64,000 nt of DNA from Glycomyces arizonensis DSM 44726 (GCF_000482705.1 NZ_KI519474.1:186001-250000), one strand, 5' to 3'; shown: positions 4,017 through 60,346, counted from the first letter of the stretch. The notes: generated from the letters alone by a model not told the origin. A program made the numbers and translations.

Positions 4017-6266
4017 ATGACCTCGACCCAGCCCCCGCGGCGACCCAGCGGTCCCATGGCGGGGGCGGCCATCGACGAGGACACGATGCACCTCCCGCTG
4101 ACCACGCCGGGCGGCGCCTCGACAGCCCGGCCCACTGTGCCGAGCCCCTACCCCCAGCGCCAGCCGTTCCGCCCGGCGCCCGCGCCGGCCCCGCCGCGGC
4201 AGCGGCCGCGCACCGAGCGCTGGGAAGGCACCGGCTTCCGGCCCGACATCCAGGGACTGCGCGCCATCGCCGTCGTCCTGGTGCTCCTGTCGCACGCGGG
4301 CTTCGCGTTCGCCGACGGCGGTTACGTCGGCGTCGACGTCTTCTTCGTCCTCTCGGGCTTCCTGATCACCTCGCTGCTGATCAAAGAGGTCTTCGACACC
4401 GGCAAGATCTCCATCGCCGGCTTCTACGCCCGCCGCGCCCGCCGCATCCTGCCGGCCGCGAGCGCGGTGACGATCGCCACCGTCATCGGCACGTGGCTGT
4501 GGTTCCCGATCACCCGCTTCGAAGCGGTGATGCAGGACGCGTTCACCGTCATCGTCTACGTGATCAACTACCGCTTCGTCGCCGAGAGCACGGAGTACCT
4601 CAACGCCGACCAGATGCCCTCGCCGTTCCAGCAGTACTGGTCGCTGGCGGTCGAGGAGCAGTTCTACGTCGTCTGGCCGCTGCTCCTGCTCGGCCTGCTG
4701 CTGCTGATGAAGCGCGCGCCGCGCCGCATGCTCAACTTGGCGATCACCGTCTGCATCGGCATCTTCGTCCTCTCCCTGATCGCCTCGGTGCTCGTGACCG
4801 AGACCTCCCAGCCCACCGCGTACTACGCCGCCCACACCCGGGCGTGGGAGCTGGCTGGCGGCGCGCTCCTGGCGCTGACCCTCCAGACCTGGAAGCGGAT
4901 ACCGAAGGCCGTCGCGATCGTCCTCGGCGTCGTCGGGCTGGCCGCGATCGTGTTCTCCGGCGTGCGCTACACCGAGGCGACCCCGTTCCCCGGCTATACG
5001 GCGCTGCTGCCGGTCCTGGGCACCATGCTGGTCATCGTCGCGGGCACGGCCCGCGGCAAGAACCCGGTCTCCTCCCTGCTGAGCACCGGGCCGTTCCAGT
5101 TCGTCGGCAAGATCTCCTACAGCCTCTACCTGTGGCACTGGCCGATCCTCATCCTCGCGCCGCTCGCGCTCGACGTCGAGCCGTCGCTGCTGCTCAGTGC
5201 CGTCCTGCTGGCCGGCACGTTCACGGTCGCCCAGTTCTCCTACGAGTACATCGAGACGCCGATCCGCACCGCGAAGCTCCTCAAGGGCAACATCATGGGC
5301 CTGGCCACCGGCGTCCTGTGCTCCCTGCTGGGCATCGCCATGGTCCTCACCCTGACACTCGGCTTCTCGAAGATCCCCGAGGACGACGGCCCCGTCGACC
5401 TGGCCGAGATCGAGGAGACCCAGGACTTGACGGCGCTCCAGGAGATGCTCCGCGAGGGACTGGAGACCGAACGCGTCCCCGACGGTCTGACGCCGCCGCT
5501 GGCGGGCATCGAGGACGACCGCCCGGTCACCTACCACAACGACTGCCATCTGAGCTTCGAGGAAGTGGATCTGCCCGATGGCTGCGTTTACGGCGACGCG
5601 GGCTCGGACACTCAGGTGGTGCTCTTCGGGGACTCGCACGCGGCCCAGTGGTTCCCCGCGCTCGACGCCGTCGCCGACAAGCACGGCTGGAGCCTGCTGA
5701 GCCGCACCAAGAGCTCCTGCACACCCGTCGACGTCCCGATGGAGAGCACGCAGAACGACGGCGAGTACACCCAGTGCGGGGAGTGGCGGTCGAAGGTGTT
5801 CGACGAGATCGACGAGATCGAGCCCGAGCTCGTGGTGATCGGCAATTCGGACGCCGTGTCCATCATGGACGCCGAGGGCAGTGGTGCCCAAGAGTGGAAG
5901 GACGGCTGGACCGACACGCTCGACCGGGTCAGCGCCTCGGCCGGTGCGGTCGTCACCTTGACCGACACGCCGTGGGCCACGGGAGAGGCGGCTGCCGACT
6001 GTCTCTCGCTGCACGAGGACTCGGTGAAGGAATGTCTGCGCGACGATCCTTACACGATCGCCCACGAGGAACTCCGCCAAGCCGGACTCGAAGCGCAGGA
6101 GGAGGCCGGCGTCTCGATCATCGACACCGAGCCCTGGCTGTGCATCGACGGGCAGTGCCCGCTGATCGTGGACGGCATGGGCGTCTACCGAGACAAGCAC
6201 CACATCACCACGCCGTACTCGAAATCGCTTGCGGCGGTGCTGGCCGACCACCTTCCGGACATCTGA
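4017..6266 (+). CDS. Acyltransferase 3 with C-terminal SGNH domain (OafA/YrhL-like)
   Basis: 749 residues: a Pro-rich cytoplasmic N-terminus (~1-75), an acyltransferase-3 membrane domain of ~10 helices (RPDIQGLRAIAVVLVLLSHA is the diagnostic first helix; the conserved SLAVEEQFYVVWPL at ~220), and an extracytoplasmic SGNH hydrolase-like domain from ~residue 500 with block I FGDSHAAQWFP and the C-terminal D-x-x-H in RDKHHIT. Members O-acylate cell-surface glycans using acyl groups moved across the membrane. It follows the envelope polymer genes, so it may decorate that polymer. A 186-base gap separates it from the permease; TACGAT at 3876 could be a -10, weakly supported. Confidence 0.9.
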   Translation: MTSTQPPRRPSGPMAGAAIDEDTMHLPLTTPGGASTARPTVPSPYPQRQPFRPAPAPAPPRQRPRTERWEGTGFRPDIQGLRAIAVVLVLLSHAGFAFADGGYVGVDVFFVLSGFLITSLLIKEVFDTGKISIAGFYARRARRILPAASAVTIATVIGTWLWFPITRFEAVMQDAFTVIVYVINYRFVAESTEYLNADQMPSPFQQYWSLAVEEQFYVVWPLLLLGLLLLMKRAPRRMLNLAITVCIGIFVLSLIASVLVTETSQPTAYYAAHTRAWELAGGALLALTLQTWKRIPKAVAIVLGVVGLAAIVFSGVRYTEATPFPGYTALLPVLGTMLVIVAGTARGKNPVSSLLSTGPFQFVGKISYSLYLWHWPILILAPLALDVEPSLLLSAVLLAGTFTVAQFSYEYIETPIRTAKLLKGNIMGLATGVLCSLLGIAMVLTLTLGFSKIPEDDGPVDLAEIEETQDLTALQEMLREGLETERVPDGLTPPLAGIEDDRPVTYHNDCHLSFEEVDLPDGCVYGDAGSDTQVVLFGDSHAAQWFPALDAVADKHGWSLLSRTKSSCTPVDVPMESTQNDGEYTQCGEWRSKVFDEIDEIEPELVVIGNSDAVSIMDAEGSGAQEWKDGWTDTLDRVSASAGAVVTLTDTPWATGEAAADCLSLHEDSVKECLRDDPYTIAHEELRQAGLEAQEEAGVSIIDTEPWLCIDGQCPLIVDGMGVYRDKHHITTPYSKSLAAVLADHLPDI

Positions 6267-8636: not shown

Positions 8637-10654
8637 CTGGAGGTCTTTCTTTCGATGGCGGTCATCAGGCGCGCATAGCCCGGGGCGGTGGCGAGCACGC
8701 CGAGCGCGAACAGGGTGGCGGCGGCCGCCGCGAAGGTCGCGACGGCGGCCACCGGCATGCCGAACACCGGCCAGGTCACGATGGCGACGAAGTAGGCGAG
8801 CACCAGACCGGCCGCCGCGACGCGGCGGTGGCGCCACAGGCCCGAGCGCCATCGCTTCACCGCCGACCGCGACGAACGGGCCCGGCTCGTTCGAGCGCTC
8901 GGCTCCTCGGCCGTCTCGGTCCACGGCGTCGGTTCGACGACGGCCGACCCTATGTCGGTCTGGCCGATGCGGCGCAGCCCGTACTCGGCCTTCCTGCCTT
9001 CCCACAGCGAAGGATCGGCGACGACCAGCCGGTCGGTCTCGACCTCGTCGGTGGGGCTGAGGAACGTGATGCCGTGGGCGCTCAGCGCGTCCAGCACCTC
9101 GTGATGGAGCGGCATGCCGTCCGGGACGGGCCGGTGCAGCGACTCCAGATGGAGGAAGGCGATGCTCTGCCCCTCCTCTGCCGCTCGGGCCATGCGGCTC
9201 AGGAGATCGCGTTGTGGTTCGTCCACGAAACGGCCGTCGGCGACGAACACGCAGTCGTAGGCGTTGCCGCTGAGGCGCTGCCCGCGACTGAACTCGGGCG
9301 CGTAGAAAGGCCGTTCGGGCGCGGCCGCGCACAGGAACGGATCCGCCCGCTTGGACTGGATCTCGCCGTGCCACAGCCGCTGAGCGGATTGGTAGGCCAT
9401 TCGCGCGGGGTGCATCCAGTTCATGCCGAACTCGGAGGACGTCAGCGTCTCGTCGCCGAGGCGCACCAGTGTCAGTGGAACGTCGGTCAGACGCTTGATG
9501 GCGCGATTGCCGAACACGGCGGTGAAGCGCATGCGGAACTCGGTGTCGGCGCCCTTCCTCACCGAGTCGAAATAGCCCATGCGCTCGCGGACCGGCGCGG
9601 CTCTGAACATGATCGACGTCGACCGCGGGCCGCGGATCGATCTGTTGGACCGGGTGACGGTGAGGTCGGTGTGGACGCGGACCGCGCTTGACACCGACAT
9701 GACGATGCGGTGGTCGTCGAGCAGGGGCTGAATCTGCGTCTCCAGCCAGCGGGGGTGGGCCCAGTCGTCGGAGTCGAGGCCGGTGACGATCTGGCCCGTG
9801 CACTCGATGAGGGCCCGGTTCCTGGCGTTGTAGGTGCCGGAATTGCGCGGGAGCATCAAGAGCTTGATCCGGGGGTCGAGCGCGCGGATTTCGGCGAGCG
9901 CCGGGTGGAACTCCTCCCCTGAGCAGTCGTCGACCAGCAGCAGCTCCCAGTTCTGCCATGTCTGGGCGAGGACCGACAGGACCGCGGTGCGCAGCTCGGG
10001 CCCGGGCCGAAAGCAGGTCATGACGATGGAGACCTTGGTGTCGGATTTCACCGGCGCTCCGGGGTTCGCGCCGAGCCGGTCGAAATACGGCAGCGAGGTG
10101 TCGTCGGACAGGGTGAGACCCCGCATGCCGGTGAGTCGGCCGAACGCCGCGAGCCATGCGTCGGTGTCGCCGCCGAGCGACGGGTGGATCGCGTCCGCCT
10201 CGATTCCCAGCCGGTCGATCTCCCCGACCGCGGTCAACCGGGGGAGCAGATCGCCGACGGAGCCGGTGGCGTGGAGGGCGCTGCGGGCGTACCAGTTCTG
10301 GTGCTCATCGGGGACGGGAGCGCCGCCGTAGCGGTCCGCCAGCGAGTACAGGGCCAGGCTGTCGTCGTAGAGGCCGTTGGCGTAGAGGACCCCGGCCAGT
10401 GCGCACACATAGTCGGCGTCGAGGTGCCGTTCGACGGCATCGCCGGAGCCGCGGGCGAGTTCGATGAGGTCGTCGAGGCCGAGTCCCGGTGCGGCCAGGC
10501 TCGTCAGCGCCCGTACCGCCAGAGGGGAGCGGGTCCGCAGAGCGGTGCGGAACGAAGCCTGGGGCCCGCTCTCACGGAAGGTCTCGACGACGACGTTGAA
10601 GCCGGACGGCTCGGTCTTCCTGCCCGCCTCTTCGAGGATGGGGGTGAGAGCCAT
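8633..10654 (-). CDS. GT2 family glycosyltransferase with C-terminal membrane helices (paralogue 1)
   Basis: 673 residues from ATG 10654, chosen over the in-frame ATG at 10717 because AAGGA stands upstream of it and the family-like sequence begins here. An N-terminal helical region (~1-195) precedes a GT-A domain: KVSIVMTCFRPGPELRTAV (~200), LLLVDDCSG, and the catalytic metal site TGLDSDDWAHPR (~290). Two hydrophobic segments occupy the last ~70 residues. Paralogous to the gene at 15166; both are directly followed by a GT4-like gene that starts with membrane helices, so the pair probably works as one membrane complex. Confidence 0.83.
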   Translation of the reverse strand: MALTPILEEAGRKTEPSGFNVVVETFRESGPQASFRTALRTRSPLAVRALTSLAAPGLGLDDLIELARGSGDAVERHLDADYVCALAGVLYANGLYDDSLALYSLADRYGGAPVPDEHQNWYARSALHATGSVGDLLPRLTAVGEIDRLGIEADAIHPSLGGDTDAWLAAFGRLTGMRGLTLSDDTSLPYFDRLGANPGAPVKSDTKVSIVMTCFRPGPELRTAVLSVLAQTWQNWELLLVDDCSGEEFHPALAEIRALDPRIKLLMLPRNSGTYNARNRALIECTGQIVTGLDSDDWAHPRWLETQIQPLLDDHRIVMSVSSAVRVHTDLTVTRSNRSIRGPRSTSIMFRAAPVRERMGYFDSVRKGADTEFRMRFTAVFGNRAIKRLTDVPLTLVRLGDETLTSSEFGMNWMHPARMAYQSAQRLWHGEIQSKRADPFLCAAAPERPFYAPEFSRGQRLSGNAYDCVFVADGRFVDEPQRDLLSRMARAAEEGQSIAFLHLESLHRPVPDGMPLHHEVLDALSAHGITFLSPTDEVETDRLVVADPSLWEGRKAEYGLRRIGQTDIGSAVVEPTPWTETAEEPSARTSRARSSRSAVKRWRSGLWRHRRVAAAGLVLAYFVAIVTWPVFGMPVAAVATFAAAAATLFALGVLATAPGYARLMTAIERKTSR

Positions 10655-21032: not shown

Positions 21033-21452
21033 ATGCGTACTTCCACCATCGCCGCCGCCGCGGCCGCCGGTCTCGCCGTCCTCGGTGCCGCCGCTCCGGC
21101 CATGGCCCAGAACTCCGGCGTCTGGGCGGGCGACCAGTCGCTGCTCAACCTGGACGCCTCCGACATCGCGCACTGGCAGGTCTGCGGCCAGAACATCCTG
21201 GCCACGTCCTACGGCCAGGACTGCGACAACCGCGACCACATCGGCGAGGGCCCCCAGTCGGGCGTCATCGCCGGCGACAAGTCGCTGCTCAACGGCGACC
21301 TGTCCGACGCGCTGCACTGGCAGATCTGCGGCCAGAACATCCTGGCCACGTCCTACGGCCAGGACTGCGACAACCGCGACCACATCGGCGACGACGGCTG
21401 GGACGAGGGCGACGAGACCCCGGCCAAGGGCGTCGACCAGGGCGACTACTAA
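21033..21452 (+). CDS. Small secreted two-repeat Cys-pair protein (member 2)
   Basis: 139 residues; GAGAAAGGAACC precedes the ATG at 21033. A signal peptide (~1-25, ending APAMA) leads into two ~48-residue repeats almost identical to each other and close to those of member 1 (HWQVCGQNILATSYGQDCDN). Each repeat has one Cys pair, 12 residues apart. An acidic tail (DDGWDEGDETP...) of ~22 residues is unique to this copy. The two repeats share a 67-base stretch of identical DNA, a sign of recent duplication or gene conversion. Confidence 0.8.
   Translation: MRTSTIAAAAAAGLAVLGAAAPAMAQNSGVWAGDQSLLNLDASDIAHWQVCGQNILATSYGQDCDNRDHIGEGPQSGVIAGDKSLLNGDLSDALHWQICGQNILATSYGQDCDNRDHIGDDGWDEGDETPAKGVDQGDY
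21181..21391 (+). repeat. Pair of identical 67-bp direct repeats inside a gene
   Basis: Bases 21181-21247 and 21325-21391 are identical over 67 bases, 144 bases apart, and encode the CGQN...CDNRDHIG part of both protein repeats of the gene at 21033. Confidence 0.85.
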
Positions 21453-42242: not shown

Positions 42243-44819
42243 ATGCTGTCGCACCGATCCAGACCCCTGCCCCGAACACGCCTCTCCAAACCCCGCATGC
42301 GAACCCTCCTGGCGGCCGCCGCGCTCGCCCTCGGGGCCGCCTGCACGCCCGCGCACGCCGCGGGCAGCGCCTACGAAGCCGAGGACGCCGCTCTGAGCGG
42401 CGGCGCAGTCGTCGAGACCGAGCACGCCGGGTACACCGGCTCCGGTTACGTCGGCGGCTTCACCGACGCGAACAAGGGCAGTGCCGCCGTGGCCTTCGAC
42501 GTCGCGGTCTCGGCCTCCGGCACGCACGACCTCGAAGTGCGCTACGCCAACGGCACCGGCGTCGACATGACCCTCTCGCTCTATGTGGACGGATCGCGGA
42601 CCCGGCTCGTGCTTCCCTCGCCGGGCGGCTGGGACGCCTGGGGCACCGTCACCGCGCCGGTCGACCTCGACGCCGGGTCCAACGACGTCGCGCTCCGCTT
42701 CGACGCAGCCGACTCCGGCAACGTCAACCTCGACAGCCTCACCGTCACTGCCGTCGCCGACGACGACCCGCCGGCGGCGGTCCAGATCCCCGGCGGCACC
42801 GAAGCCGAGGACGCCGCTCTGAGCGGCGGTGCGCGCGTCGAGACCGAGCACGCGGGATACTCCGGCACCGGCTACGTCGGCGGCTTCACCGACGCCAACA
42901 AGGGCAGCGCCGCCGTCGCGTTCGCGCTCGACGCTCCCGCGGCGGGGGAGTACGCCGCCGAACTGCGCTACGCCAACGGGACCGGCGCGAACATGACGCT
43001 CTCGCTCTACGTCGGCGGCGCCAGGACCGGGCAGCTCACGCTGCCGCCCACCGGCGGCTGGGCGTCCTGGGGCACCGTGGACACCACCGCGGACCTCACT
43101 GCCGGAGTGAACGATGTCGCCTTCCGCTTCGACACCGCGGATTCAGGCAACGTCAACCTCGACAACCTCACCGTCGAAGCCACCGACGACGACCCCGGCA
43201 CCGACCCCGGCGAGCCCGGCGGCGACGGCGCCGACCTGCCGTACACCGAGTACGAAGCCGAGGACGCCGCCACCAACGCCACCGTGCTCGGCCCCGACCG
43301 CACCTACCGCACCGTCGCCTCCGAGGCCTCCGGCCGCCAGGCCGTCCGCCTCGACCGGACCGGCGAGTACGTCGAGTTCACGCTCACCGAACCGGCGAAC
43401 GCCCTGGTGCTGCGCTACTCCATCCCCGACTCGGCCGACGGGACCGGCCTGAACGCGCCGATCGACGTGTACGCCGACGGCGCCAAGCTCACCGACCTCG
43501 AACTGACCAGCGCCTACAGCTGGGTCTACGGCCAGTACCCGTTCCCCAACGACCCGGCCCAGGGCCTGGCGCACCGGTTCTTCGACGAGACACGAGCCCG
43601 GTTCGACACGCTCCCGGCCGGGACGGTCCTGCGCTTCGAGAAGGACGCCGCCTCCACCGGCGCCCACTACGACATCGACCTGATCGACACCGAGCAGGTC
43701 GGATCGCCGCTACCGAAACCGGCGGGCCTGGTGGACATCACCGACCACGGCGCCGTCCCCGGCGACGGGGCCGACGACACCGCCGCGATCCGCTCGGCCG
43801 TCGCGGCCGCCCAGTCGGCCGGGACCGGCGTCTGGATCGGCAAGGGCCGCTTCACGATCACCGAGCGCATCCAGGTGAACGGCATCGACGTCCGCGGCGC
43901 CGGGCCCTGGTACTCGGTCCTCGAAGGGACGGACGGGCGCGGCGGCATCGAGCCGACCGGCGGCGCCGTCACCATCGCCGACCTCATGATCGACGGCGAC
44001 GTCACCTATCGCGACCCGGACGGCCAGATCACCACCGACACCGCCATCGAAGGGGTCTTCGGCCCCGGCTCGACCGTGGCGAACGTGTGGATCGAGCACG
44101 CCAAGGTCGGCATGTGGATCCACAACGGCACCGACGGCCTGACCGTCACCGGCGTGCGCGTCCGCGACACCTTCGCCGACGGCATCCACCTCAACGGCGG
44201 CACCCGCGACACCGTCGTCGAGCAGAGCCACGTGCGCGGCACCGGCGACGACGCCCTCGCCATGTGGTCCAACGGCACCGCCGTCGCGAACTCCTCGTTC
44301 CGGGACAACACCGTGCAGACGCCGAACCTCGCCAACGGCATCGCGATCTACGGCGGCGAGAACAACAGCGCCGTCGGGAACCTGATCGCCGACACCGTGA
44401 CCGCCTCGGCGGGCATCGCCGTCAGCACGCGGTTCAACCCGGTGCCGTTCAGCGGCGAGACCCTCATCGAAGGGAACACCCTCGTGCGCACCGGCGGCCT
44501 GGAGCCGAACTGGAACAGTCAATTCGGCGCTTTGTGGATCTACGCTGACACCTCGGACATCACCGCGCCGGTCACCGTGCGGGACATGGTCATCCGCGAC
44601 TCCACATACGCGGGTGTGTTGATGAGCTGGCAGCGCCAGATCACGAACGTGACGTTCGAGGACGTCGTCATCGACGGCACCGGCACCTGGGGCATCGAGA
44701 TCCAGGCGAGCGGTTCGGCCTCGTTCACGAACGTGGACGTCACCGGGGCCGCCTCGGGCGGCCTGAGCGCCGCCGCCGGTTTCAACGTCGTCCGCGGTGA
44801 GGGCAACTCCGGATTCTGA
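42243..44819 (+). CDS. Secreted GH87-type alpha-1,3-glucanase with carbohydrate-binding modules
   Basis: 858 residues: a signal peptide (~1-40, ending TPAHA), two tandem CBM35/6-like modules that are near copies of each other (~42-175 and ~186-315; YEAEDAALSGGAVVETEHAGY and again), a third sandwich domain (~335-480), and a right-handed beta-helix (~490-858). DGIHLNGGTRDTVVEQSHVRGTGDDALAMWS (~650-680) is the GH87 core, with the paired Asp of the catalytic site. GH87 enzymes cut alpha-1,3-glucan or nigeran outside the cell; the products would enter by the adjacent importer and be split by the GH13 enzyme. Confidence 0.85.
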   Translation: MLSHRSRPLPRTRLSKPRMRTLLAAAALALGAACTPAHAAGSAYEAEDAALSGGAVVETEHAGYTGSGYVGGFTDANKGSAAVAFDVAVSASGTHDLEVRYANGTGVDMTLSLYVDGSRTRLVLPSPGGWDAWGTVTAPVDLDAGSNDVALRFDAADSGNVNLDSLTVTAVADDDPPAAVQIPGGTEAEDAALSGGARVETEHAGYSGTGYVGGFTDANKGSAAVAFALDAPAAGEYAAELRYANGTGANMTLSLYVGGARTGQLTLPPTGGWASWGTVDTTADLTAGVNDVAFRFDTADSGNVNLDNLTVEATDDDPGTDPGEPGGDGADLPYTEYEAEDAATNATVLGPDRTYRTVASEASGRQAVRLDRTGEYVEFTLTEPANALVLRYSIPDSADGTGLNAPIDVYADGAKLTDLELTSAYSWVYGQYPFPNDPAQGLAHRFFDETRARFDTLPAGTVLRFEKDAASTGAHYDIDLIDTEQVGSPLPKPAGLVDITDHGAVPGDGADDTAAIRSAVAAAQSAGTGVWIGKGRFTITERIQVNGIDVRGAGPWYSVLEGTDGRGGIEPTGGAVTIADLMIDGDVTYRDPDGQITTDTAIEGVFGPGSTVANVWIEHAKVGMWIHNGTDGLTVTGVRVRDTFADGIHLNGGTRDTVVEQSHVRGTGDDALAMWSNGTAVANSSFRDNTVQTPNLANGIAIYGGENNSAVGNLIADTVTASAGIAVSTRFNPVPFSGETLIEGNTLVRTGGLEPNWNSQFGALWIYADTSDITAPVTVRDMVIRDSTYAGVLMSWQRQITNVTFEDVVIDGTGTWGIEIQASGSASFTNVDVTGAASGGLSAAAGFNVVRGEGNSGF

Positions 44820-53654: not shown

Positions 53655-53876
53655 TTACCTGATAGCCCGGACCAGTCCGGCCCAGTCCACGCGGTCCACC
53701 ACCAGGTGCTGGAAGCTGCCGTCGGAGGTCGGGAGCTTGGTGTCGCCGACCGCGACTGCCGATCCGTCAACCGCCGCCGCGACGCAATTCCCGTTCGCGG
53801 TGCTGTCGCTCCTGCTGCTCTTGCGGAACTTCGCACGACCCCACCCGGTCGGCTGCTGATCGGTCATCCGAGTCAT
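53655..53876 (-). CDS. DUF397 protein
   Basis: 73 residues. AKFRKSSRSDSTANGNCVAAAV...VAVGDTKLPTSDGSFQHLVV is the complete DUF397 pattern. These small proteins usually sit directly beside a Scr1/BldD-like HTH regulator with a DUF5753 tail and act with it as a regulatory pair in actinomycetes; here that partner is damaged. Its ATG overlaps the end of the partner. Confidence 0.9.
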   Translation of the reverse strand: MTRMTDQQPTGWGRAKFRKSSRSDSTANGNCVAAAVDGSAVAVGDTKLPTSDGSFQHLVVDRVDWAGLVRAIR

Positions 53877-54415
53877 TACTCCACTTCCTTCAACACCGCC
53901 TTCAAGCGGTCGATCGTGTCCTCATCGCCGAGGCTGCGCTCGCGCCAGAGGGCATCGTAGGCATCTGTGAAAGACTTTACATCCTCCCCTTCGCCGACCA
54001 CCCCGCCGATCGGGGTGTCTACCTGCATCAACGTCGGCCAGGCTTCGCGCATCTCCAGGATCCGGAAGCTGGTGCCGATCCCTGCAAGGATGTGCGCCCA
54101 AGAGTTGACCGGGAGGATCCTGACCGACACGTTGGGACGTTCGGCAAGATCAAGCACGTAGCGCAGCTGGGCTGCGATGACTTCCGGCCCAGCCTCCTGC
54201 TGAGCGATGATGGATTGGTGGACTAGGAACTTCGCCTCCGGCGCGTCGAACTTGCGGAGCACCTCGCCACGCATGGCCCCACTGCGGTCGTCTTCGATGC
54301 CGTGCGCGCTGTGTGCACCGCGCTGTTCGGCAGGGCCGAGGAGATCGGACGATCGAGTGCCGCCTGCAAGGTGACCGCTGCTCCGATCTCGTAGCTTCCG
54401 CCGTGGCAGGGTCAT
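53876..54415 (-). pseudogene. 5'-truncated Scr1-family regulator (DUF5753 remnant)
   Basis: The recognisable part (~54360 down to 53876) is the C-terminal DUF5753 domain: RKFDAPEAKFLVHQSIIAQQ, AERPNVSVRILPVNSWAH, SFTDAYDALWRERSL. A typical gene of this family has ~280 residues with an N-terminal HTH; here only ~145 fit, and the upstream sequence in all three minus frames shows no HTH. A start at 54274 could still make a 132-residue domain protein, so a surviving short product is possible. Confidence 0.65.
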
Positions 54416-54613: not shown

Positions 54614-54913
54614 ATGGCCTGGCATCGCACCCGCTACTATCCGCTCGCCGTCCGCATCGTGACGGGCGTCCTCACCGCCATCGCGGTGATCATCCTGCTG
54701 TACCTGGTCCTGATCCTCCTGGAGGCCAACCAGGCGAACCCGCTGGTGGACTTCATCGGAGCGATCGCCGACTGGTTCGCGTGGCTGTTCCACGACATGT
54801 TCACCGCGGACGAGCCGAAGGTCCAGGCGCTGATCAACTACGGCCTCGCCGCGGTGGTGTACCTGCTGCTGGCGGCACTCGTGCACGCGGTGGGCCGCCG
54901 CACGCTCGACTGA
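54614..54913 (+). CDS. Small two-helix membrane protein
   Basis: 99 residues; GAGGAGCC precedes the ATG. Helices at ~12-36 (VRIVTGVLTAIAVIILLYLVLILL) and ~73-92 (LINYGLAAVVYLLLAALV) are joined by an amphipathic loop with WFAWLFHDMF. Similar small proteins are common in actinobacteria without known role. It ends in a terminator, so it is monocistronic. Confidence 0.75.
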   Translation: MAWHRTRYYPLAVRIVTGVLTAIAVIILLYLVLILLEANQANPLVDFIGAIADWFAWLFHDMFTADEPKVQALINYGLAAVVYLLLAALVHAVGRRTLD

Positions 54914-54967: not shown

Positions 54968-55011
54968 GAATTCGGTAGATGCGATCCACCTAGATTCCAT
55001 CTACACAATCG
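54968..55011. repeat. Degenerate three-copy 15-bp-period palindrome array (left unit)
   Basis: Three 14-bp elements at 54968, 54983 and 54998 with an exact 15-base step: GAATTCGGTAGATG, GATCCACCTAGATT and CATCTACACAATCG. The second matches a unit of the array at 56765 at 12 of 14 positions. It lies 33 bases from the 3' end of the first AAA+ gene. Confidence 0.6.
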
Positions 55012-55044
55012 CCGGAGGCGGGCACCGTCGACTGCCGCGGCAGG

Positions 55045-56493
55045 TCAAGCGGCCCAAGCCTGGAGAAGGTCATCCGGACCCCAGACCAGATCCGCTTCGA
55101 CGCCGTCCGCCACGCCCGCGAGGCTGACGACGGCCAGATCGGTCTCACCCGGCACGGCCCCGGGAACGCGAGAAGATCCGGCCACGAGCTTCTCGTAGTC
55201 TCGGCGGTCGAACGGCCTGCCCAGCCATTTGATGGAACCGGTGTAGAAGAGGTGCTTGGCGACCGGCCTCCGGTCCGCTCCCACCAGATCGATCTCGGGA
55301 TCGAAGCTCCGGGGCCACCAGCCCCCCACTTCAGTCGCCTCCGGCCAGGGGAACGCTTCGTGTATGCCCGCCACCACCAATGCCTCTCGCACCAGCGGCT
55401 CGATCGCCCGCCCGCGCCAACTCGTCCACTGGCGTTCGAATCGCGCGTACGCCAGATCGGGTCTGCCCCGCCGGGAGTCGGCGTGCGCGTCGACGAGCAC
55501 GGAATGGTAGAGGCGGAGGTAGCTGTCGGCGATGCGAAAGAGCTTGCCGCCGTTGCCGGGGCGGGTGGAGAGCGGCTCGTCGGCCGCTACGGCGCCCTTC
55601 TCGATCAGGCGATGCAGGATCGGAGTCAGGGAACCGGAGCTCAGCGGCTCGGTCGGACTCGCTCCCGCGACTTTGGCGATATTGCTGAAGGTGCGTGAGC
55701 CGTGGCCGATGGCGGCCAGCACTTGGCGAGTCCGGTCGGGTGCGGGGAACTCGGAGGACACCATCTGGGCCCCGACCGTGAACAGAGGACTTTCCGGGAG
55801 CTCGCATTGCTCGGCGACGTACTCCTCGGCGGTCGACCCCTGCTTCCAGGTCCTGCACAGGCCCGGGAAGCCGCCGGTGATGAGGTGGGCATCGATGGCG
55901 TCGGGCCCGGCGAGTCCGGTGAGCGCCGCCGTCTCCGTGGGGTTCAGGGGCCGCACCTGCATCTCTGCCGCGCGGCCGTAGAAGGGCCTGTCATAGCCGA
56001 GAAAGGCCCGCATCATGTGGATGTCGCTGCCGACGAGGATCAAGAACAGCGGTTTCTTCTTGAGGCGGCGATCCCACTCGGTCTGGAGCATTCCCTCCAG
56101 GCGCTGATCCCGCTGAAAGAGCCAGGGGAGCTCGTCGATGACGAGAATGGAAGGCGAGTCGTCCGGGATGGCGGTGGCGAGGAGGCGGAAAGTCTCGTGC
56201 CAGTCGTCCGGCACCGCCCTGGCGATATTTTGCGCGCCGGGCAGATCCGAGTTCCGGACCGACTCCAGCAGGCGGGTCATCGACTGTGTCGGGCTGACCC
56301 CCTGGTCTGCTTGGAACACGGCATAGGGAAGTCCGGACTCTTGGCAGAAGCGCTCCACGAGGTGGGACTTCCCGACCTGGCGGCGCCCTCGGATCGCGAC
56401 CGCGACTCCCTCTCCCCAGCGCTCGATGCGTTCCAGGTGGGATCTGAGGGCCTTGAACTCGCGCCTTCGGCCTACGAAGTGAGCATCTGACAT
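55045..56493 (-). CDS. AAA+ ATPase with DUF234/PD-(D/E)XK-like tail (copy 1)
   Basis: 482 residues. ATPase_2-type P-loop module: FVGRRREFKAL entry, Walker A GRRQVGKS (36-43), Walker B LVIDELPWL (D120/E121), sensor GSDIHMM (~155-161), DRPFYGRAAEMQVRPLNP. A winged-helix region (~250-320) follows, then a C-terminal DUF234-like domain with FDPEIDLVG (D398, E400, D402) and TGSIKWL (K422), a PD-(D/E)XK-like arrangement in which the E-x-K Glu is Ser. AGGGG stands 5 bases before the ATG, and the 38-bp palindrome begins 9 bases upstream. Clear homologue of the gene at 56858. Cellular role unknown. Confidence 0.82.
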   Translation of the reverse strand: MSDAHFVGRRREFKALRSHLERIERWGEGVAVAIRGRRQVGKSHLVERFCQESGLPYAVFQADQGVSPTQSMTRLLESVRNSDLPGAQNIARAVPDDWHETFRLLATAIPDDSPSILVIDELPWLFQRDQRLEGMLQTEWDRRLKKKPLFLILVGSDIHMMRAFLGYDRPFYGRAAEMQVRPLNPTETAALTGLAGPDAIDAHLITGGFPGLCRTWKQGSTAEEYVAEQCELPESPLFTVGAQMVSSEFPAPDRTRQVLAAIGHGSRTFSNIAKVAGASPTEPLSSGSLTPILHRLIEKGAVAADEPLSTRPGNGGKLFRIADSYLRLYHSVLVDAHADSRRGRPDLAYARFERQWTSWRGRAIEPLVREALVVAGIHEAFPWPEATEVGGWWPRSFDPEIDLVGADRRPVAKHLFYTGSIKWLGRPFDRRDYEKLVAGSSRVPGAVPGETDLAVVSLAGVADGVEADLVWGPDDLLQAWAA

Positions 56494-56502
56494 AGAAACC
56501 CC

Positions 56503-56540
56503 TGACGTAAAATCGTCTTACGTAAAACGATTTTACGTCA
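56503..56540. repeat. 38-bp near-perfect AT-rich palindrome (copy 1)
   Basis: Arms TGACGTAAAATCGT (56503-56516) and ACGATTTTACGTCA (56527-56540) are exact reverse complements; the centre CTTACGTAAA is palindromic except for its outermost pair. It sits directly upstream of the ribosome site of the AAA+ gene copy 1, where it could act as an operator or, as RNA, as a hairpin. A related 38-bp site follows copy 2. Confidence 0.85.
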
Positions 56541-56720
56541 GAAAGGTCGACGTGACCACGACAGCTGTGTCACCGGTCGCCAGTCGTCGGGCCTGAGGTG
56601 CTCGAACGTCTCCACGCGCAGCGCGTGGTCCTCCACGACCAAGGAGCACGGCGTCGCCAGCTTGCGCCGCCCCGGCAGCCAGCGCGGCCCGTCGCTGCAC
56701 GAGTGAGCCCCCGGGTCCAA
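56538..56720 (-). pseudogene. Internally deleted fragment of the ybjN-like gene
   Basis: The minus-strand translation [20 protein letters not shown], then RVETFEHLRPDD, repeats the start and the end of the intact gene at 58370 with the ~100 residues between them missing. Sequence identity with the intact copy is high on both sides of the join at ~56605-56625. The frame runs out in the 38-bp palindrome. It is a partial duplication, not a functional gene. Confidence 0.8.
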
Positions 56721-56764
56721 GCTCGGGGACCGGCCCCGGCCACCCCAGCCGAGCTGGTAGTACG

Positions 56765-56838
56765 CATCTTTCTAGATGGCATCTACCTAGATTTGATCTT
56801 GCTAGGATCCATCTACATAGATATCATCTACAAAGATG
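56765..56838. repeat. Five-copy 15-bp-period palindrome array
   Basis: Five 14-bp elements start at 56765, 56780, 56795, 56810 and 56825, exactly 15 bases apart: CATCTTTCTAGATG, CATCTACCTAGATT, GATCTTGCTAGGAT, CATCTACATAGATA, CATCTACAAAGATG. The first and last are perfect CATCT-N4-AGATG palindromes. The array ends 19 bases before the start codon of AAA+ copy 2, so it covers its promoter; a cooperative repressor or a protein filament site is likely. Confidence 0.88.
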
Positions 56839-56857
56839 ACGGAAGGCCGGTGACGCC

Positions 56858-58294
56858 GTGAAAGACGTATTCGTAGGGCGCTCGCGCGAGCTCGCCCAGC
56901 TGACCGACCGCCTTGACGCCGTTCGCGAGCGCGGCAAAGGCATAGCCGTGACGCTCCGGGGTCGCAGGCAGGTCGGCAAGTCGCGGCTCGTGCAGGAGCT
57001 CTGCGACCGCTCGGGCCTGCCCTACGTCTATCTGACCGCCTTCAAGGGCGCCTCATCGGCCGAATCGATCCGGCGTTTCCTCGCCGACATCCGAGAATCC
57101 AGCCTCCAAGAGGCCGGCGGCGTCGAGGCGATGGCGGCGGAGAACTGGATCGGGCTCTTCCGAACGCTCGACGACCTGGTCGCCGAGACGCCGGTCGTCA
57201 TCGTCCTCGACGAGGTGCCGTGGCTCGCCGAACAGGACGAGACCTTCGACGGCGCGCTCCAAGTGGCGTGGGACCGGTATCTGTCGCGCAAACCGGTGCT
57301 GCTGTGCCTGCTCGGCAGCGACCTCCACATGATGGAACGCCTCACCGCCTACGACCGGCCTTTCTACGGACGGGCCGACAACATGGAGCTCCGGCCGCTG
57401 AACCCGGCCGACACCGCCGACGCCACGGGGCTCGAAGGCGCCGACGCGGTGGAGGCACATCTCCTCTCGGGCGGCCTGCCGGGCATCCTGTCCCGTTGGC
57501 CCACAGGGATGCCGCCGCTGGAGCACCTGCGCGGCCAGGCGGCCGATCCGAGTGCGCCGCTCGTCAACGTTCCCGAGTCCGTACTGCTGGCGGAGTTCCC
57601 CTCGCCGGATACCAGACGCCGTGCGCTGGAGGCGATCGGGGCGGGCGAGCGAACGCAGTCGGGCATCAGCGCCGCGGCCGAGGGCATGGCCAGCGGCACC
57701 CTCGTGCCGGTCCTCGAACAGCTCAGGGCGGTGAAACGGGTGATCGACAGGGACGATCCGCTGTCCACCCGGCGGGGCAAGCCCGCGCTGTTCCGTGTCG
57801 CCGACGCAAACCTGCGGTGGTACTTGGCCATGGGCCGCGAGGCGCAGAGCCACGCCAGGCGCGGCCGCGGGGGACAGGCATTCGGCGTGATCGAGCGCCG
57901 TTGGTCGTCTTGGCTCGGCAAGGCCGTAGAACCGCTCGTGCGGGAATCACTGGAGATGGCGGCGCTCGCGGGCCGATTGCCATGGGAGGACGTCGAAGCC
58001 GTCGGCGGTTGGTGGAACCGGAGGTTCGACCCCGAGATCGACCTGGTCGGCGCGGACCGGGCCCGGATCGCCAAGGCGATCCGCTTCGCGGGCTCGGTCA
58101 AATGGCTGGAAGGCCCGTTCGACGGCCGCGACCTGGCGGCACTGGAGCGTTCGTCGCCGATGATCCCGGGATTCGAATCCGGCGAAGCCGGGCTCGTGGT
58201 GGTATCGCGCTCGGGCCTGAGCGACCGCGTCGACCGCGACCGGATCAGCACGGCGTGGGGACCGCAAGACCTGCTCGACGCCTGGCGCGAATGA
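56858..58294 (+). CDS. AAA+ ATPase with DUF234/PD-(D/E)XK-like tail (copy 2)
   Basis: 478 residues from GTG 56858, with GGAAGG 11 bases upstream. Same domain order as copy 1: FVGRSRELAQL, Walker A GRRQVGKS (35-42), Walker B IVLDEVPWL, GSDLHMM, YDRPFYGRADNMELRPLNPA, winged helix, and the C-terminal FDPEIDLVGADRARIAK...GSVKWLEGPFDGRD. By eye about 40% identical to copy 1, so these are old paralogues, not a recent copy. The family (ATPase_2 plus DUF234) is widespread in archaea and actinobacteria; its function is not established to my knowledge. Confidence 0.82.
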   Translation: MKDVFVGRSRELAQLTDRLDAVRERGKGIAVTLRGRRQVGKSRLVQELCDRSGLPYVYLTAFKGASSAESIRRFLADIRESSLQEAGGVEAMAAENWIGLFRTLDDLVAETPVVIVLDEVPWLAEQDETFDGALQVAWDRYLSRKPVLLCLLGSDLHMMERLTAYDRPFYGRADNMELRPLNPADTADATGLEGADAVEAHLLSGGLPGILSRWPTGMPPLEHLRGQAADPSAPLVNVPESVLLAEFPSPDTRRRALEAIGAGERTQSGISAAAEGMASGTLVPVLEQLRAVKRVIDRDDPLSTRRGKPALFRVADANLRWYLAMGREAQSHARRGRGGQAFGVIERRWSSWLGKAVEPLVRESLEMAALAGRLPWEDVEAVGGWWNRRFDPEIDLVGADRARIAKAIRFAGSVKWLEGPFDGRDLAALERSSPMIPGFESGEAGLVVVSRSGLSDRVDRDRISTAWGPQDLLDAWRE

Positions 58295-58310
58295 ACCTCA
58301 ACGGACTCCC

Positions 58311-58348
58311 TGAGGTAAATCGTTTTTACGTCAAAATGATTTACCTCA
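58311..58348. repeat. 38-bp AT-rich palindrome (copy 2)
   Basis: Arms TGAGGTAAATC (58311-58321) and GATTTACCTCA (58338-58348) are exact reverse complements around a 16-base centre containing TTTTTACGTCAAAA. Length and word content match the site at 56503. It begins 16 bases after the stop codon of AAA+ copy 2 and lies before the 3' end of ybjN. Confidence 0.8.
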
Positions 58349-58369
58349 GAAACACCTGGTCCCCGGCAC

Positions 58370-58846
58370 TCAATCCCGCGGCCTGAGGTGCTCGAAGGCC
58401 TCCAGGTTCCTCGTCGACTCGCCTCTGGCCAGGCGCCAGCGCCACTCCTCCCTGATCGAGCTCGCGAAGCCCAGTTCGAGGATCACGTTGAACGTCTCGT
58501 CGGCGGCCTCCAGCACCGCGCCCAGGACCCGGTCCAGCTCCTCGGGGTTCACCGACGCGAGCGGGAGCCGCCCTACCAAATGGACGTCGCCCGACTCGTC
58601 GATCGCGAACGCGACGGCGTACAGCCGCCCGTTGCGCCGCAGCAGCTCCGCCCACACCGCCTCGGCGTTCTCTTCCGGGCACCTGGCGACGAACGCCTCC
58701 ACGCGCAGCGCGTGGTCCTCCATCACCAGCGAGCACGGCGTCGCCAGCTTGCGCCGCCCCGGCAGCGCGAGCGCCACCGAGCGCGGCCCGTCGGCCCGGT
58801 ACTCCAGGCCCATCTCGTCCAATGCGGCGGTGAGGTTCCCTATCAC
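58370..58846 (-). CDS. YbjN domain protein
   Basis: 158 residues from GTG 58846, whose start shares 4 bases (GTGA) with the mshA stop. [37 protein letters not shown] and AYAVAFAID-type strands followed by [25 protein letters not shown] fit the YbjN fold, a two-domain chaperone-like family. The same gene follows mshA in mycobacteria (Rv0487-type), where its role is not known. Confidence 0.88.
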
Positions 58847-60144: not shown

Positions 60145-60247
60145 TTGTATCCGTCCTCTCCTGTGCTTGCGCGTCACGGCCGCCGGTAGGGGCGGGCCGT
60201 CATCGGCACAACGCGCGAAACCCCCGTAAACCTTCCGCTTTCGGCAG

Positions 60248-60346
60248 TGCTCATTTACCGCTCGCAAGCTTCGCGGTGGGTGCTCATTTACCGCTCGCAA
60301 GCTTCGCGGTGGGCGCTCATTCACCGCTCGCAGGTATCACGGTGGT
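60248..60346. repeat. Three tandem 33-bp repeats upstream of mshA
   Basis: Units start at 60248, 60281 and 60314. The first two are identical and the third is degenerate. Each holds ACCGC...GCGGT as a small inverted repeat around AAGCTT (in the first two). The 400-base gap 60145-60544 otherwise shows no gene; the divergent mshA and TetR-type promoters must lie in it. Confidence 0.85.

Follow-up and report, generated by a model that had tools for sequence, protein, structure and literature searches.

Genes and repeat elements beside ybjN

The window analysed here, a stretch of 64,000 nucleotides from Glycomyces arizonensis DSM 44726 (GCF_000482705.1, NZ_KI519474.1:186001-250000; positions are counted from its first letter), carries beside a ybjN-like gene two related genes for ATPases with a DUF234-type tail (gene1 and gene2), each of which is accompanied by a tandem array of 15-bp units (A, A') and by a palindrome (P, P'; Table 1). 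The original prediction had described both ATPase genes in opposite directions, each with a 15-bp-period array to its left and a 38-bp palindrome to its right, and this layout was confirmed, the arrays consisting of TAGATnnnATCTA units and the palindromes being near-perfect over 40 bp; the likeness of the two genes, given there as about 40%, was measured as 46% identity over 479 columns. Two points had been missed: the palindrome, too, is built as an array, with ACGTA-type sites at a 15-bp period, and a damaged partial copy of ybjN is situated between gene1 and gene2. As the palindromes are 15-bp periodic as well, array and palindrome represent two sequence types of one architecture. Viewed relative to the genes, P is located 5' of gene1 and A' 5' of gene2, and the 3' side of each gene bears the other type.

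P and P' are the sole gapless palindromes with 20-bp arms of such quality in the window; a further TAGATnnnATCTA tandem pair besides A and A' was found neither in the window nor, at up to three mismatches, in the whole genome. The P class is also present in the gene1 relatives of genomes G003, G018 and G019. The ybjN duplicate matches positions 58690-58790 (85% over 101 bp) and 58310-58404 (70% over 98 bp); one intact ybjN copy per genome is present in 22 of 22 Glycomyces genomes.

Table 1. Features of the double ATPase locus in the window (aa, amino acids).
Feature	Position	Strand	Composition	Placement and remarks
orf99	54614..54913	+		Left host boundary of the hotspot; beside ybjN in G005 with no ATPase gene between; beyond gene1 in G018 and G019
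Array A	54975..55005		2 TAGATnnnATCTA units, exact 15-bp spacing	3' of gene1
gene1	55045..56493	-	482 aa; ATPase, winged helix, DUF234-like tail of putative nuclease fold
Palindrome P	56502..56541		ACGTA-type sites, 15-bp spacing; 19/20 paired	5' of gene1; putative own operator
ybjN, damaged partial duplicate	56545..56701	-	Internally deleted; outer limits approximate	Between gene1 and gene2
Array A'	56757..56838		4-5 TAGATnnnATCTA units, exact 15-bp spacing	5' of gene2; putative own operator
gene2	56858..58294	+	478 aa; ATPase, winged helix, DUF234
Palindrome P'	58310..58349		18/20 paired	3' of gene2; second copy of the ybjN-side palindrome
ybjN-like gene	58370..58843	-	Pfam YbjN, 67.6 bits	Right host boundary

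Position and period of the array in homologues

In the Glycomyces homologues an AT-rich repeat array is located directly before the start codon, its motif varying between subgroups, and pooled lag analysis of these upstream regions gave 22.9 matches at lag 15 versus 15.1 in shuffles. For 80 actinobacterial homologues, most of them from genera other than Glycomyces, a strict arm-pair scan for tandem palindromes recovered only 39 at a permissive threshold and was replaced by a scan for the consensus unit GTAGATnnnATCTAC, which was picked after inspection of the sequences; the lag analysis is free of any consensus. At least one unit was present upstream in 61, 71 and 77 of the 80 at up to two, three and four mismatches, the 77 within 145 bp (background expectation at four mismatches: 0.16 units per 145 bp). 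The corresponding counts for the 300 bp downstream were 1, 3 and 18, with 0.003, 0.04 and 0.34 units per locus expected from background. Units followed each other at a spacing of 15 in 75 pairs and of 16 in 21 pairs; among 96 homologues, the best upstream lag was 15 in about 61 and 16 in 22.

The period recurred in distant, plasmid-borne homologues from haloarchaea, Rhizobiales/rhizobia, Vibrio, Fusobacteria, Selenomonas, Rhodothermus, Bacteroidales and Arcobacter: lag 15 was best upstream in 19 of 21 (one tie; shuffle P 0.005-0.01 each) and downstream in 1 of 21, a set that contains close pairs and corresponds to an estimated dozen or so independent cases. The array sequences of these homologues were unrelated from group to group. 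Relatives elsewhere comprised 147 plasmid records, a single viral contig and seven weak phage records. Upstream arrays of other periods, 25 bp (TCGTGTAGT/ACTACACGA) and 16 bp, were found in sister ATPase groups of Glycomyces (L005, L079, L255, L256, L257; L027, L241, L242, L244). In the DUF4143 genes of Glycomyces examined as control family (L260-L289), period 15 occurred in 1 of 26; their direct-repeat arrays, with a best lag of 23 in about 18 of 26, look like the same principle in another geometry.

A stringent tandem pattern was detected in 5 of 297 Actinomycetia genomes and in none of the reversed control. These five are the window itself, three genomes with the pattern directly beside an ATPase gene, and a fifth with the pattern beside an internally deleted, decayed gene remnant recognizable in two stretches (E about 1e-8). 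Such an array beside an internally deleted, decayed ATPase gene (locus L259, about 5580-5780) shows that arrays can outlive their genes. Two Nocardia arrays, in L137 (about 6107-6136) and L144 (about 8642-8686), have no detected gene of their own and lie downstream of an intact copy, at distances of 0.7 and 3.2 kb; they may mark lost gene copies, although no convincing coding remnant was detected beside either. Broken ATPase copies, a frameshifted gene1 relative in G019 (G019:C8:89378-90810, in L090) and a copy with an internal TGA in G012 (C151, L037), suggest a rapid gene turnover.

Domain structure of the ATPases and covariation with the array

Both window proteins exceeded the cut-off for AAA_16. 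The Pfam DUF234 score of gene2 was 28.5 bits and that of gene1, with 22.1 bits, just below the cut-off of 22.5; for ATPase_2 both were below the cut-off of 33.2 bits (31.5 and 30.4). Relatives L219-L225 and L235 reached the ATPase_2 cut-off, and in distant relatives ATPase_2 and DUF234 scored well above the thresholds. The Walker A and B motifs, GRRxxGKS and DE, are invariant or nearly so in 18 aligned homologues, and the conserved middle segment of the alignment matches, in distant relatives, a winged helix of the MarR/ArsR/IclR type. In the PDB, the gene2 AlphaFold model (mean predicted local distance difference test score, pLDDT, 90) matched 2qen (PAB2304) and 2fna (SSO1545) best; next came plant NLRs, DNA-bound Orc1/Cdc6, the origin recognition complex (ORC) and Apaf-1. 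For the C-terminal domain alone (model pLDDT 90) MspJI was the best, albeit weak, match (E 1.2e-3, probability 1.0), with NucS/EndoMS weaker still; a match of this kind would be expected of a restriction-endonuclease-like fold. The nuclease motif reads G-S-x-K in 18 of 18 aligned members of the window clade and G-E-x-K in distant relatives; the replacement of the catalytic Glu by Ser makes nuclease cleavage doubtful in the window clade. The PADLOC models of PDC-S27 were matched by all 18 aligned Glycomyces members and by 10 of 10 further proteins scanned.

Covariation was assessed on 96 homologues, with the 5' regions represented by strand-symmetric word profiles and the proteins by their distances. 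The Mantel correlation with the array was 0.66 for the winged-helix segment, 0.56 for the AAA domain and 0.52 for the C-terminus; as partial correlations, 0.41 remained for the winged-helix segment versus 0.03 for AAA and -0.05 for the C-terminus. In a sliding-window analysis the peak was located at residues 241-320 (partial correlation 0.34; best non-overlapping window 0.19), and none of 500 permutations reached the observed value.

Origin of the double unit

According to the comparison of genomes, the ybjN locus exists in several states: in G005 it is empty, with orf99 directly next to ybjN; G018 exhibits the order ybjN-P-gene1-orf99, array A being absent; in G019 the order is ybjN-P-gene1 (frameshifted)-A-orf99, with three units of A at the same place and no gene2; and G021 contains ybjN-gene2 (reversed)-array with no palindrome. 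The window has the order ybjN-P'-gene2 (reversed)-A'-ybjN fragment-P-gene1-A-orf99. Its segment from ybjN to P' matches the ybjN-to-P segment of G019 (90% over 571 columns), the segment ybjN-gene2-A' aligns with G021, and from the end of the ybjN fragment onward the alignment is again with G019; the ybjN fragment and P jointly resemble the ybjN end and P'. In consequence, the window represents two locus states joined, with the piece of ybjN end and palindrome occurring twice. The order of A and P seems to be kept despite the flipped gene because P sits beside ybjN and A marks the gene2-type lineage.

Judged from these alignments, the doubling is a putative hotspot effect, i.e. two genes of different specificity appear to have landed beside ybjN. 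The alternative offered in the original prediction, an entry of two related genes into one target in different orientations, is supported by the existence of empty, gene1-only and gene2-only loci. Homologous recombination would probably have brought into an ancestral ybjN-P-gene1-A-orf99 locus a block made up of gene2 with its array and a further ybjN/P piece. P' behind gene2 would then be the ybjN-side palindrome, a putative operator of gene1's type, and A behind gene1 is probably the leftover operator of a gene2-type copy.

At three loci the ATPase gene is flanked by direct repeats of host DNA (69-114 bp, 90-95% identical): L005 (1175-1288 and 3013-3126), L002 (1351-1422 and 3012-3083) and L016 (1348-1416 and 3111-3179). 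G019 contains a single copy of the L005 repeat, the ATPase gene being absent there. A long target-site duplication as a general signature of insertion was rejected, as the repeat region of L002 and L016 has several scattered matches in other genomes, and no mechanism is claimed.

Adjoining the hotspot, an open reading frame at 53876-54415 contains a DUF5753 match that begins at profile position 55 of 178 and may represent a truncated regulator. Tandem repeats of other kinds occur at 60247-60332 (33-bp unit, 2.6 copies, 96% matches, inside the N-terminal reading frame of an mshA-like gene) and, with long units, at 42374-43195 (426 bp) and 21129-21391 (144 bp).

The array as putative cognate operator

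The explanation we favor, with a probability of about 0.73, is that each array serves the ATPase gene downstream of it as cognate operator; the gene product would bind its own array via the winged helix and autoregulate, and the double unit in the window would result from the history of the locus. The protein, an ORC/STAND-like ATPase with winged helix and a tail of putative nuclease fold, would assemble cooperatively on the array, with a pair of subunits contacting each 15-bp palindrome by their winged helices, and the array-bound protein would control its own promoter; site sequence and winged helix would drift jointly, the 15-bp geometry staying constant. A step of 15 bp corresponds to approximately 1.4 helical turns, so that neighboring sites are located roughly on opposite faces of the DNA, and a regular protein assembly would be expected to impose just such a pattern of fixed step and free sequence. 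The covariation of array and winged helix also supports the suggestion in the original prediction of an action of the protein on these elements. The refutation test named there, homologues devoid of the elements or elements common without the gene, tells against the two-ended unit but leaves the pairing of gene and array standing.

Several observations weigh against the favored explanation. Partial covariation within clades is weak (0.11 and 0.07), the signal being chiefly one between clades; the covariation analysis ignores phylogeny, and the permutation test is lenient owing to the relatedness of the homologues. The consensus-unit test is loose at four mismatches. The two exceptions to period 15 in the distant set are among the most divergent plasmid homologues and show no period, and some subgroups of deep relatives in Glycomyces exhibit a period of 16 or 25, others no clear period. 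Concerning the locus history, G019 keeps A behind gene1 with three good units, which would be compatible with a functional site rather than a scar, and a search beside A for coding remnants of a lost gene yielded nothing convincing.

It is possible, though unlikely, that the array is more than an operator: the array, with its 15-bp spacing, might be the place where the ORC/STAND-like ATPase nucleates a regular multimer, and would then serve as a cognate licensing platform of a single-gene system that crosses domains. If this were true, every family would have its fixed geometry, with 15 bp for the genes treated here, 16 and 25 bp for the sister groups and 23 bp for the arrays before DUF4143 genes, and a drifting sequence code would let several insulated paralogues coexist in one genome.

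We regard it as improbable that the array is the site of a different, host-encoded regulator to which the ATPase gene is one target among others. The arrays do sit at the usual position of an operator, but the site sequence differs between paralogues of one genome and covaries with the winged helix of the adjacent gene itself, and elsewhere in the genomes the tandem array is almost absent. Slightly less credit is given to an iteron-type loading site for replication, DNA unwinding or partition, with the protein as ORC/Cdc6-like initiator and autoregulation as a secondary trait. Such a role would fit the AT-rich tandem repeats, the many relatives on plasmids and the structural matches following 2qen and 2fna, which include Cdc6/Orc1 and ORC complexes, several of them DNA-bound; NLR and Apaf-1 STAND proteins, however, match about equally well, the genes discussed here have a chromosomal context, with mshA and ybjN as neighbors, and are often several per genome, and no replicon or partner genes are located alongside in the window.

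The first idea of the original prediction makes array and palindrome the ends of an element with an invertible inside; this reading, with a mobile or invertible element moved by the ATPase-nuclease, is very improbable. The A-gene-P order kept twice despite opposite genes, the patchy occurrence of copies across the genus (from none to several in a genome), the position of the closest gene1 relative (G003, 75%) on a different contig from its ybjN and the direct repeats around some copies would suit it. Against it, the homologues bear one array, on the 5' side only in the set of 80, G021 has gene2 without P and G018 gene1 without A, P and P' accompany ybjN sequence, Ser replaces the catalytic Glu in the nuclease motif of the window clade, and both element types together are largely absent from the borders of independent insertions.

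Significance and relation to known systems

Although DUF234-type ATPases occur widely in both archaea and bacteria and figure among the defence candidates, they are poorly studied; in the open-access literature the domain name is nearly unmentioned, occurring as such in a single paper among 5.39 million. No report of arrays upstream of these genes was found in that literature (subscription journals and preprints being outside the scope of the search), and the novelty of the array is therefore provisional. A fixed-period array before nearly every sampled gene provides each protein with a ready-made candidate DNA target, so that binding and regulation are directly testable; the many naturally diverged pairs of protein and site offer material for learning how a winged helix reads DNA, and since the array tags decayed gene copies, gene turnover becomes traceable.

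Like the ATPase_2 (PF01637)/DUF234 (PF03008) proteins SSO1545 (2fna) and PAB2304 (2qen), the window proteins comprise an ATPase followed by a winged helix; the window clade differs from this family in scores near or below the Pfam cut-offs and in the loss of the nuclease Glu. The PDC-S27 models of PADLOC, which the window family matches, denote a defence candidate by name and include no cis array. With STAND regulators of the IniR/MalT type the window proteins share a STAND/AAA+ ATPase coupled to a DNA-binding domain, which is predicted here. IniR is a transcriptional regulator, the ATPase domain of which resembles SSO1545 (PMC5760070). It controls iniBAC, binds DNA with a domain at its C-terminus and possesses a MalT-like sensor domain; unlike IniR, the window proteins have a central winged helix and a tail of putative nuclease fold and are each encoded by a single gene with its own array. 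The Orc1/Cdc6 initiators, which act at origin boxes, likewise combine AAA+ domain and winged helix; in contrast to these, no origin context was seen, and the palindromes, placed before the gene with which they covary, adjoin one another at 15 bp.

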